A DNA stretch of 64,000 nt, taken from contig NZ_JAQQTG010000051.1 in the NCBI RefSeq assembly GCF_028561335.1, positions 124,001 to 188,000 of the forward strand, read 5' to 3'. The stretch comes from Aequorivita todarodis (GTDB taxonomy: Bacteria > Bacteroidota > Bacteroidia > Flavobacteriales > Flavobacteriaceae). Below are positions 58,405 to 61,891 of this stretch, one piece after another. A model generated the notes under the pieces. It ran no database searches and was not told the origin of the DNA. It was given only the letters and a program-made list of their open reading frames with translations. The position numbers and the translations under genes were made by a program. Position 1 is the stretch's first letter. Every line of letters starts with the position of its first letter.

Positions 58405-58434
58405 TTGTTTCCGAAGATAAAATCCCTATTTTTG
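58405..58434 (+). promoter_or_regulatory. Bacteroidota-type promoter of metG
   Basis: TTG at 58405-58407, a 19-nt spacer and TATTTTTG at 58427-58434. The ATG at 58473 leaves a leader of about 30 nt. The apparent GTG start at 58434 falls on the -7 box and is rejected. Confidence 0.78.
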
Positions 58435-58472
58435 TGCCTTCCAAATTAATTAACCCAGGTTTTAAAAAAGAT

Positions 58473-60611
58473 ATGGATCAAGACCCAAAACGCTATACTA
58501 TTACCGCCGCTTTGCCCTATACCAATGGCCCCGTTCACATCGGTCATTTGGCAGGGGTTTATGTGCCAGCAGATATTTATGCACGTTTCCAAAGACTTCA
58601 AAATAAAGACGTGGCCTTTATTTGCGGCAGTGATGAACACGGGGTGCCAATTACCATTAAAGCAAAAAAAGAAGGAGTTACGCCACAGCAAGTAGTGGAT
58701 AAATACCACGGAATCATCAAAAAAAGCTTTGAGGATTTTGGAATTTCCTTTGATAACTATTCGCGCACTTCTGCGGAAATCCATCATAAAACGGCGTCGG
58801 AATTTTTCAAAAAATTATATGAAGGCGGAAAATTTACCGAAGCGGTTACCGAACAATTATACGATGAAGAAGCCAATCAGTTTTTAGCAGACCGATATAT
58901 CACGGGAACTTGTCCTAAATGCGGAAATGAAGAAGCCTATGGCGACCAATGCGAAAAATGTGGCTCCAGTTTAAACGCTACGGAACTAATAAATCCAAAA
59001 AGCACCATTTCTGGGAATAAACCTATTTTAAAAGAAACAAAACACTGGTTTTTGCCTTTGAACGAATACGAAGATTTTCTGAAGCAATGGATACTTGTGG
59101 ACCATAAAAAAGATTGGAAAACCAACGTTTACGGCCAATGCAAAAGTTGGATCGACGATGGTCTGCGTCCGCGAGCCGTCACCCGCGATTTGGACTGGGG
59201 AATTCCCGTGCCGGTGGAAGGAGCGGAGGGAAAAGTACTTTATGTTTGGTTTGATGCGCCCATCGGTTATATTTCTTCTACTAAGGAATGGGCGGCGCGT
59301 GAAGGCAAAAATTGGGAAGATTATTGGAAGGACGAAAAAACAAAAATGCTTCACTTTATTGGGAAAGACAACATCGTTTTCCATTGTATTATTTTCCCTG
59401 CGATGCTGAAAGCTGAGGGAAGTTATATTCTACCGGAAAACGTTCCCGCGAACGAATTTTTGAATCTTGAAGGCAACAAAATTTCAACCAGTAAAAACTG
59501 GGCGGTTTGGCTGCACGAATATTTGGAGGATTTTCCGAACCAGCAGGATGTGTTGCGATACACTTTAACCGCAAACGCCCCGGAAACAAAGGATAACGAT
59601 TTTACGTGGGCAGATTTTCAAGCCCGAAATAATAATGAATTGGTTGCCATCTTCGGAAATTTTATAAACCGCGTACTAGTTTTGACCGATAAATATTACG
59701 GCGGAATTGTTCCGGAACCAGCAACTTTTTCAGAAATTGACGAGCAGACTTTAAATGAATTGAAAGCATATCCCGAGGTAATTGCAAGTTCAATTGAGCG
59801 TTACCGTTTCCGCGAAGCGCAGGCAGAATTGATGAACGTCGCCCGCCTCGGGAACAAATATCTTGCCGACGAAGAGCCGTGGAAAACCATAAAAACAGAT
59901 GAAGAACGCACAAAAACCGTAATGTATGTTGCGTTGCAAATTGCTTCGGCCTTGGCAGTTTTAAGCGAACCGTTTTTGCCGTTTACTTCAGAAAAGTTGA
60001 AAAATATGTTGAATTTCCAAGCCTTAAAAATACAACCTACGTGGCAAAATATAGCCACACTTTCTCCCCCTTCGGGGGAGATGCCTTTAGGCAGAGGTGG
60101 ACACAAAATTGGAAAGGCCGAATTGCTTTTCAGCAAAATAGAAGACGAGCAGATTGAAGCCCAATTAGAAAAATTGAAACAAACCAAAATGGATAATAAA
60201 GTGGAAAAAGTAACTGATAAATCAAGTGACGTTTCACAAAACGACGGACAGACTGCTTCGGCTGAAATAGCCTCGCAGAAGCCAACAATCCAATACGATG
60301 ATTTCGCTAAACTCGATATGCGAGTGGGAACAATTTTGGAAGCCGAAAAAATGCCTAAAGCGGACAAACTTTTGGTTTTAAAAATCGATACAGGAATTGA
60401 CGTTCGCACCATAGTTTCCGGTATTGCGGAAAGTTTTAAACCAGAGGAAATCATCGGTAAAAAAGTTACTGTTTTGGCAAACCTTGCCCCACGCACGCTT
60501 CGTGGTGTAGAAAGTCAGGGAATGATTTTAATGACTGAAAATGCTAACGGGAAACTTGTTTTTATGAATCCGGGGGAAGAAGGGGTTGCCAATGGGGCGA
60601 CTATAAATTAA
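58473..60611 (+). CDS. metG: Methionyl-tRNA synthetase with C-terminal tRNA-binding domain and a repeat insert
   Basis: A 712-residue class I synthetase: [15 protein letters not shown] (HIGH motif) near residue 20, zinc site [18 protein letters not shown] near 150, and KISTSKNW (KMSKS motif) near 337. The C-terminal domain (about 610-712) is a tRNA-binding EMAP-like fold with [20 protein letters not shown]. Between the anticodon-binding helices and the [10 protein letters not shown] segment, residues about 530-542 ([14 protein letters not shown]) come from a palindrome at 60063-60100 and look like an in-frame insertion. Confidence 0.94.
60063..60100. repeat. Palindromic repeat inside metG
   Basis: TCTCCCCC, TTC, GGGGGAGA (60063-60081) followed by TGCC, TTTA, GGCA (60082-60093) and GAGGTGG. 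Both hairpins read in frame. It is related to the CCCC/GGGG arms beside fbp and at 18462. Confidence 0.82.
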
Positions 60612-60869
60612 GCTAAAGGGATACCCTTGGTTAGGTAGATGATATCGCCCTTGCAGAGCTTCGATATAGGAGGAATTTTGGGATTATGGTCTAGCCCTGA
60701 AAGGGCGTCATCCCTCAACGATGCGGCACAGCCCATCGACTGCGGCACAGCCCATCGACTGCGGCACAGCCCATCGACTGCGGCGCAGCCCCTCGACTGT
60801 GGCAAACAAAGCCCATCGCTAAGCACACATAAGAACCAAAGCCCTGAAAGGGCCGTAATACGAATCAAT
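60612..60869. other. Left REP cluster between metG and the transposase
   Basis: No gene. It contains AGCCCTGAAAGGGCG at 60693-60707 and again, ending in C, at 60840-60853, with the 19-bp tandem repeat between them. Confidence 0.8.
60723..60798. repeat. Four tandem copies of a 19-bp unit
   Basis: Three perfect copies of GCGGCACAGCCCATCGACT and a fourth with two changes. The unit is the second-hairpin segment of the first REP module, expanded in tandem. Confidence 0.93.
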
Positions 60870-61322
60870 ATGGGACAATCACTCGTAAAAAATTACATCC
60901 ACATCGTATTCAGCACTAAGTATCGAACCCCAATGATCTATCCTCCGGTGGAGGAAGAACTACATAGCTATCTCGGTGGAATCTGTAATAATCTTGATTC
61001 CCAAGTTATAAAAGTAGGTGGCTATACCGATCATGTCCATATGCTCTGTAAGCTCTCCAAAAAGATAGCTTTAATGAAACTGGTAGAGGTTGTAAAGTCA
61101 AATTCTTCCAAATGGATCAAAGCAAAGGGAAAAGCTTATGAAAACTTTTATTGGCAAGACGGTTATGGCGCTTTTTCGGTAAATCCCTCTCAGGTAGATA
61201 CTGTAATTGCTTACATCGCCAATCAGCATGAACATCATAGAAAAAAGACTTATCAAGATGAGTTCCGAGCATTTTTGAAGAAGTATAAAGTTGATTATGA
61301 TGAGCGTTATGTTTGGGATTAG
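60870..61322 (+). CDS. Stand-alone IS200/IS605-type Y1 transposase (TnpA, RAYT-like)
   Basis: A 150-residue Y1 transposase. The HUH motif is DHVHML at about residues 55-60, and the catalytic Tyr is in VIAYIANQHEHH near 115-126; YWQDGYGAFSV is a usual neighbour. It lacks a tnpB partner. Upstream in-frame ORF sequence is only repeat, so the ATG at 60870 (MGQSLVKNYIHIVFSTKYR) is the true start. The palindromes on both sides, in inverted and direct orientation, make it a candidate REP-associated tyrosine transposase. A simple decayed IS200 is the alternative. Confidence 0.85.
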   Translation: MGQSLVKNYIHIVFSTKYRTPMIYPPVEEELHSYLGGICNNLDSQVIKVGGYTDHVHMLCKLSKKIALMKLVEVVKSNSSKWIKAKGKAYENFYWQDGYGAFSVNPSQVDTVIAYIANQHEHHRKKTYQDEFRAFLKKYKVDYDERYVWD

Positions 61323-61891
61323 GATGCTGTTCGAGACTTGATATTTCGCCCTTTCAGGGCTTGGATGCGGTTACCTCTTCCTTCTGCTCCAAAGGGCTGC
61401 GCCCCTTGTTCGGGGGTATCGCCCTTTCAGGGCTTGGGTTTTTGAGTGTGCCTTGCAAAAGTGCTCTGCCTTTTGTTGTGGGATTTTGCCCTTTCAGGGC
61501 TGGTATTAGGTTATGAATCTATTCATGCTTATTAAATGAAAGTTCAGCCTCGGAAGGGATATAACTCCACAATGCGTATCCGCCTTATCGGATAGAAGAG
61601 TTTGCTTTTTCTGTGCCTTAGCCCTGAAAGGGCGATATGCCTGAACGATGGGTTAATGCCCATCGTTATGAAAGGAAAATGCCAAATCCAAAAGCCCTGA
61701 AAGGGCGACGTGCCATAACGATGGGCATTCGCCCATCGTTTGTAGTAAAGATGTTCACAAAACTTAAAAGCCCTGAAAGGGCGATACACTTTTTTTATTC
61801 CGAAGAAATATCATTAAAGGTCATATAGTCTCTGGAATCCTTATTTTTGTCATAAATTTATTCAAATCCATTCCCCATAATTTCAGTTTCT
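61323..61891. other. Right REP cluster between the transposase and tex
   Basis: No gene; the small open frames here are made of repeat sequence. Three minus-orientation copies of the REP palindrome (61347, 61420, 61487) are followed by three plus-orientation copies (61620, 61693, 61769). Two of the latter carry perfect 9-bp second stems AACGATGGG/CCCATCGTT. A TATTTTTG box for tex is at 61842-61849. Confidence 0.82.
61842..61849 (+). promoter_or_regulatory. -7 element of tex
   Basis: TATTTTTG, 42 nt before the GTG start. No TTG at ideal spacing, so a -7-only match. Confidence 0.5.

Follow-up and report, generated by a model that had tools for sequence, protein, structure and literature searches.

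A probable REP-producing system of an IS200-class transposase and its cognate hairpin modules, with a proposed identity for Acido-Lenti-1

Introduction

In the stretch of Aequorivita todarodis DNA analysed here (64,000 nucleotides, the window), a short gene for an HUH/Y1 transposase stands among many copies of one palindrome. The locus raises the question of which class of transposase this is and what the palindromes are to it. The first-pass annotation proposed a REP-associated tyrosine transposase (RAYT) with its own elements. In the TnpA_Y1 survey of Quentin et al. 2018 (PMC6006769), class 2, which includes the RAYTs, has a Y---NP signature. Subclass 1.2, from Cyanobacteria and Bacteroidetes, is described with a median length of 148 aa, the motifs DH[IV]H, WQ and YIKNQKEHH, low copy number and the entry "REP: no" (Table 1 of that survey); it is recorded with neither IS ends nor REPs.

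The palindromes also touch on an Rfam family. Acido-Lenti-1 was described from Acidobacteria and Lentisphaerae as a probable RNA that is non-cis-regulatory (Weinberg et al. 2010, PMC2864571), and Rfam files it as an sRNA (RF01687). A 2026 paper (PMC13298647) notes that little is known of its function and reports it near Tannerella protease genes, as a possible regulatory ncRNA.

Results

The tnpA gene encodes a 150-aa protein that matches Pfam Y1_Tnp (PF01797; 97.8 bits, E 6e-28), in agreement with the first reading of the sequence. Its neighbours are metG (58434-60611) and a tex-like gene starting at about 61890, and no tnpB partner is present at the locus, also as first noted. The ORF stays open 5' as far as 60639; homologues start at MGQS. 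The 14-mer AGCCCTGAAAGGGC occurs in eight exact copies between 60693 and 61782, and their layout (++ tnpA --- +++) is the one originally described: two direct copies upstream, three inverted copies downstream and three direct copies beyond. When up to two mismatches were allowed, nine copies were found in the window against 0.42 expected, and none of 100 shuffles reached nine. The features of the locus are as follows.

60647..60660, minus strand: degenerate hairpin A with two mismatches, inverted, just past metG
60693..60706, plus strand: hairpin A (GCCCT-GAA-AGGGC), outer upstream copy
60693..60738, minus strand: decayed module with a weak match to RF01687 (18.5 bits, E 0.36)
60722..60797, plus strand: four 19-bp units TGCGGCACAGCCCATCGAC, head-to-tail
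60840..60853, plus strand: hairpin A, inner upstream copy, 16 nt ahead of the tnpA start codon
60870..61319, plus strand: tnpA, single-domain HUH/Y1 transposase of 150 aa, IS200 class with a subclass-1.2 signature
61348..61361, minus strand: hairpin A, inner downstream copy, 25 nt past the tnpA stop codon
61390..61434, plus strand: two-hairpin module, RF01687 Acido-Lenti-1 match (21.5 bits, E 0.057), below the gathering score
61421..61434, minus strand: hairpin A, second downstream copy
61488..61501, minus strand: hairpin A, third downstream copy
61620..61633, plus strand: hairpin A, first of three further direct copies
61644..61667, no strand assigned: hairpin B (AACGATGGG..CCCATCGTT), past the linker
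61693..61706, plus strand: hairpin A, second of three further direct copies
61693..61738, minus strand: module, end-to-end RF01687 Acido-Lenti-1 match (27.6 bits, E 0.0013; gathering score 37)
61717..61740, no strand assigned: hairpin B (AACGATGGGCATTCGCCCATCGTT)
61769..61782, plus strand: hairpin A, final copy in the array

Hairpin B (61644-61667 and 61717-61740) is a second hairpin type that alternates with hairpin A. When folded as DNA, the two strands of the module are of near-equal stability, at about -4.5 kcal/mol each. The 19-bp tandem units at 60722-60797 lie inside the in-frame 5' extension of the tnpA ORF and are probably a local expansion of one hairpin B arm.

TnpA carries the motifs DHVH, WQ (as YWQ) and YIANQHEHH (Y---Q--HH), and both HUH histidines and Y115...Q119 are invariant. 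The protein passes the NCBIfam IS200/IS605 model (NF033573; 76.6 bits against a cut-off of 55) and fails that for REP-associated tyrosine transposases (NF047646; 22.3 bits against 80). A profile search of solved structures picked out IS608-type transposases, at E 6e-15 for the best, and none of the structures matched was a RAYT. Judged by motifs and NCBIfam scores, TnpA is an IS200-class enzyme of subclass 1.2; it behaves like part of a RAYT/REP system yet lies outside the RAYT family. What survives of the first-pass proposal is a Y1 transposase with REP-like palindromes of its own; the RAYT membership does not. The nearest named relatives are from Bacteroidota, orthologues occur as a rule once per genome, and tnpA itself is single copy.

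Two other Y1 proteins are encoded in the same genome. A second subclass-1.2-type paralogue of 41% identity (L033 1000-2450; G000 contig C13:57000-60500) has its own, different array, in which ATCCC-GAA-GGGAT hairpins followed by ACATA are repeated on both sides, together with GACCCC..GGGGTC and GAACCC..GGGTTC hairpins. A class-2 RAYT-like protein of 185 aa with the motif YIHNNP (L034 1560-2117, minus strand; G000 contig C7) scores 79.5 bits against the NCBIfam RAYT cut-off of 80.

Hairpins were counted at 80 named homologue loci from Bacteroidota, Planctomycetota, Verrucomicrobiota, Acidobacteriota and other phyla, taking every GC-rich stem of 5 perfect base pairs, whatever its triloop, so that the loop was not preselected. 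GAA triloop hairpins are 20-fold enriched by the gene (210 in the 78 kb within 500 bp, 71 in the 536 kb farther away) and are found beside it at 65 of 81 loci; AAC/GTT triloops, which largely belong to the second hairpin, are 26-fold enriched. A phylum-wide sample from the protein search, which may overlap the first set, gave GAA hairpins at 25 of 29 loci and an 11-fold enrichment. The weighted consensus is A-GCCC(T/C)-GAA-(A/G)GGGC-G-N-(A/C)-A-T-A, and over 230 hairpins it contains no GT[AG]G foot. A module joins the 5-bp GAA hairpin, through 12 nt of linker in which an ATA is conserved, to a second hairpin; in most modules the second hairpin, usually of 8 bp, starts 12 nt past the first. The mode of hairpin spacing is 64-75 bp, or about 70 bp.

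The hairpins face the gene from either side. The closest upstream hairpin is on the plus strand at 47 of 55 loci (p 8e-8) and the closest downstream hairpin on the minus strand at 44 of 52 (p 4e-7); at many loci a few tens of nucleotides separate the innermost hairpin from the start codon downstream of it. Stem type tracks the protein tree, with 32 changes against 44.8 +/- 1.6 in shuffled data (minimum 40) and with GTCCC and ACCCC as clade-specific stems, although stem types nonetheless switch often on the tree. The G428 array now has the hairpin GTCCT-GAA-AGGAC. A separate case is another Y1 gene in G009:C1:116040-118286 (L075 2541-4790), present as three tandem copies with identical scores and ringed by GTCCC-GTTA-GGGAC hairpins, a local amplification of gene and palindrome.

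The modules are recognized by an existing Rfam model. A cmscan of the window locus placed RF01687 end to end on three modules, at 27.6, 21.5 and 18.5 bits, all below the gathering score of 37. Among 39 homologue loci (287 kb) there are 18 matches above the gathering score, every one within about 700 bp of the gene; those at the orthologue in genome G004 reach 42.1 and 39.2 bits, and scores at the other loci rise as high as 58.2. On the complementary strand, the RF01687 consensus is the same module: an 8-bp hairpin, a 12-nt linker and a 5-bp triloop hairpin. A survey of 392 Bacteroidota genomes compared the 41 that encode a close homologue (E 1e-38 or better) with the 351 that do not: RF01687, at E up to 1e-3, is present in 30 of the former and 42 of the latter (OR 20, p 1.8e-16; OR 27 above the gathering score). 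The p-values do not describe independent events because the genomes are related, and part of the co-occurrence is simply modules adjoining the gene. Up to 15 candidates per genome were scored for RF01687 in this phylum search, the set above the score was rebuilt from E-values (32 of 34 reported genomes), and the genomes include MAG contigs, for which mis-binning is possible. Of the 72 genomes with RF01687 matches, 23 (6 of the 32 above the score) are without a homologue at E 1e-20.

Because the same hairpins accompany related transposase genes and scatter in genomes, Acido-Lenti-1 is probably the DNA substrate of the transposase rather than an RNA. Searches of the open-licence literature returned no earlier identification of Acido-Lenti-1 as a transposase module, and the hairpin motif, searched as text, returned unrelated papers only. 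The Tannerella Acido-Lenti-1 "ncRNAs" 3' of protease genes (PMC13298647) may themselves be transposase-linked DNA repeats.

The first-pass annotation tied the palindrome to this transposase, and counts in relatives bear this out. Within the genus, the palindrome is present in exactly 6 of 28 genomes, which are those with an orthologue of at least 78% identity. Across the family it is far from equally frequent without the transposase: by a hand count from tables, 7 of the 11 genomes whose homologue reaches at least about 49% identity carry its 13-mer, against 20 of the 384 that lack such a homologue. Since five of the six orthologues in the genus lie in one common place, between metG and tex, tnpA appears to be mostly stationary and inherited in place. 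The metG-tex gap is about 1.06-1.25 kb with the element and, by the same measure, 30-48 nt in six genomes where metG lies next to tex without it, and in the other genomes the search gave no metG match beside tex; the gap is too diverged for this comparison to yield a base-exact insertion junction.

Gene-less copies differ in number from genome to genome. The window genome (3.33 Mb) has one further exact copy of AGCCCTGAAAGGGC, so that eight of nine lie in the window locus; that ninth copy is on contig C11, in a gene-less ++-- cluster of four (13-mer core, one mismatch allowed). Genome-wide REP dispersal was looked for in this genome and is minimal, amounting to that one gene-less cluster; the palindromes here are nearly all local, and dispersal is clear in relatives only. 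In the sixth genus genome, G004, tnpA is elsewhere and gene-less units occupy five sites spread over four contigs. Of these units, three are full ++-- tetrads homologous to the C11 unit, with ends that are not fixable to the base because some copies have longer common flanks. G004 also holds a broken second transposase copy (G004:C3:217500-223500; L069 2000-3600), with in-frame stops and partly N-masked, which still has module arrays on its flanks.

Beyond the genus, many Bacteroidota genomes have at least eight RF01687 copies, most of them distant from any homologue, and among the best 30 RF01687 matches fetched the gene lay within 1.5 kb in 7. Flavipsychrobacter stenotrophus has dyads (module-spacer-hairpin) at many sites with differing flanks; these begin at (A)GCCC, and several end after GACATAA. 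In G773, near-identical ++-- tetrads occur at three sites and have a GTA triloop, which is that of its own tnpA locus. Elsewhere, a 177-bp unit bearing a module is repeated three times in tandem (G043:C14:628350-629400; L248). An unrelated dispersed repeat, TCGAGTGATGCCCTGAAAGGGCATTGTATCGAGAAGTG (G148:C1:2684300-2685600; L220), includes the same 13-mer; the G148 repeats were therefore set aside as background, and a repeat of this type can give false positives when a motif is simply counted.

Discussion

Collectively, the architecture of the locus, its conservation across phyla, the co-occurrence, the orientation of the hairpins, the cognate variation and the dispersed dyads and tetrads point to a probable REP-producing system, in which an IS200-class (subclass 1.2) transposase is paired with cognate DNA hairpin modules that correspond to RF01687. 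The association of transposase and modules is held with high confidence; whether the enzyme carries out the steps expected of it (hairpin binding, cleavage and movement in trans) is, by analogy, an even call. The broader proposal, that REP systems arose independently from a class 1 transposase, apart from the proteobacterial RAYTs, and that Acido-Lenti-1 is a multi-phylum DNA substrate and terminal module and not an RNA, is favoured with somewhat less assurance than the reading of the locus itself.

The proposed mechanism draws on the biochemistry of IS200/IS605 and TnpA_REP (PMC8266576). Its unit consists of a 5-bp stem closed by a GAA triloop or another of the GNA type, then a 12-nt linker carrying the conserved ATA, and a longer second hairpin; such units, about 70 bp apart, point towards the gene from either flank (++ tnpA --). 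TnpA may bind the folded hairpin A in single-stranded DNA, such as the lagging-strand template, and its tyrosine would cleave near the conserved ATA, which is found at the edge of dispersed dyads. Dyads and tetrads of modules could then be copied or moved in trans, while tnpA itself would stay mostly fixed and vertically inherited, with occasional horizontal transfer.

Other explanations account for parts of these data. The locus could be an ordinary autonomous IS200-like element with the arrays as its ends and the gene-less units as internal-deletion MITEs. The inverted ++/-- ends by the gene do match those of gene-less tetrads, and distant genera hold homologues with 75-81% identity, a sign of horizontal transfer. 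Such an element is nevertheless rather unlikely given the few copies per genome, the predominance of the metG-tex site among genus orthologues, the failure to find a boundary of the element or a target site that different copies of the gene share, and dispersed units that are often single dyads and not end-to-end deletions; its difference from a REP-producing system is one of degree. The RAYT REPtron of the first-pass annotation (TnpA_REP, class 2) shares the low-copy Y1 gene between inverted REP-like palindromes, without tnpB, but is scarcely credible when the signature is Y---Q--HH in place of Y---NP, the curated model is missed by so wide a score, the hairpins lack the GT[AG]G foot and the closest solved structures are IS608 TnpA and its kin. 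Filing TnpA as a canonical RAYT was ruled out on the signature, the curated score and the foot sequence.

Two further readings place the hairpins in gene expression. The modules might be RNA elements (small RNAs, terminators or mRNA-stability elements) that are near the genes by chance, in keeping with the Rfam sRNA label and with four terminator-like hairpins at the locus against 1.6 expected. We consider this improbable: the modules flank the gene in inverted order, form tandem runs and are dispersed in either orientation, as expected of a DNA repeat, there is no promoter-like excess, and the tie to a single family of DNA-processing proteins is strong. Alternatively, the hairpins could be mainly operators through which TnpA or another protein represses tnpA, their dispersal being incidental. 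The innermost hairpin ahead of the start codon at many loci would suit such a role, which leaves the equal downstream arrays and the gene-less dyads and tetrads unexplained and is, if anything, a little less probable than the RNA reading.

The REP-producing system preferred here offers a concrete, testable identity for an Rfam family unexplained since 2010 and fills a gap in the account of TnpA_Y1 subclass 1.2, which had been recorded as lacking both IS ends and REPs. The "no REP" entry for that subclass should be revised; the 2018 record appears to have been limited by its automated screen, which looked for hairpins tagged with GT[AG]G. A second, IS200-derived route to REP-like repeats, beyond Proteobacteria and without the GTAG rule, would also help in asking which features of REP recognition are general.

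Among known systems, the REPtron/RAYT loci, such as Stenotrophomonas Sm and Marinomonas Mb (PMC8266576), likewise have a low-copy Y1 gene, multiple inverted palindromes of its own, gene-less copies elsewhere (weak in the window genome) and cognate variation. Group 3 REPtrons share the short perfect stems and 3-4 nt loops, and those of Marinomonas the concentration of palindromes near the gene (PMC8266576). In contrast to these, the enzyme here is of class 1 (Y---Q), and the hairpins are without a GTAG/GTGG foot and have a second hairpin at a fixed distance, and, on the GAA strand, a conserved ATA 3' of the hairpin. Subclass 1.2 (PMC6006769) agrees in length (about 148 aa, here 150), in DH[IV]H, WQ and Y---Q--HH, in low copy number and in Bacteroidota hosts, but REP-like modules were found here at most loci and in more phyla than surveyed (Planctomycetota, Verrucomicrobiota and others). 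IS200/IS605 elements (IS608, ISDra2) have the closest enzymes by NCBIfam and PDB sequence search, and recognition of single-stranded DNA hairpins would be expected in common; the present system differs from them in having neither tnpB nor multiple near-identical copies, and several inverted hairpins per side instead of one subterminal hairpin per end. Whereas Acido-Lenti-1 was described as a probable noncoding RNA (PMC2864571), the module here is linked to a transposase and is scattered in the manner of a DNA repeat. REPINs and BIMEs also disperse as inverted REP pairs, but the unit here is a direct-module dyad or a ++-- tetrad with extra hairpins between.
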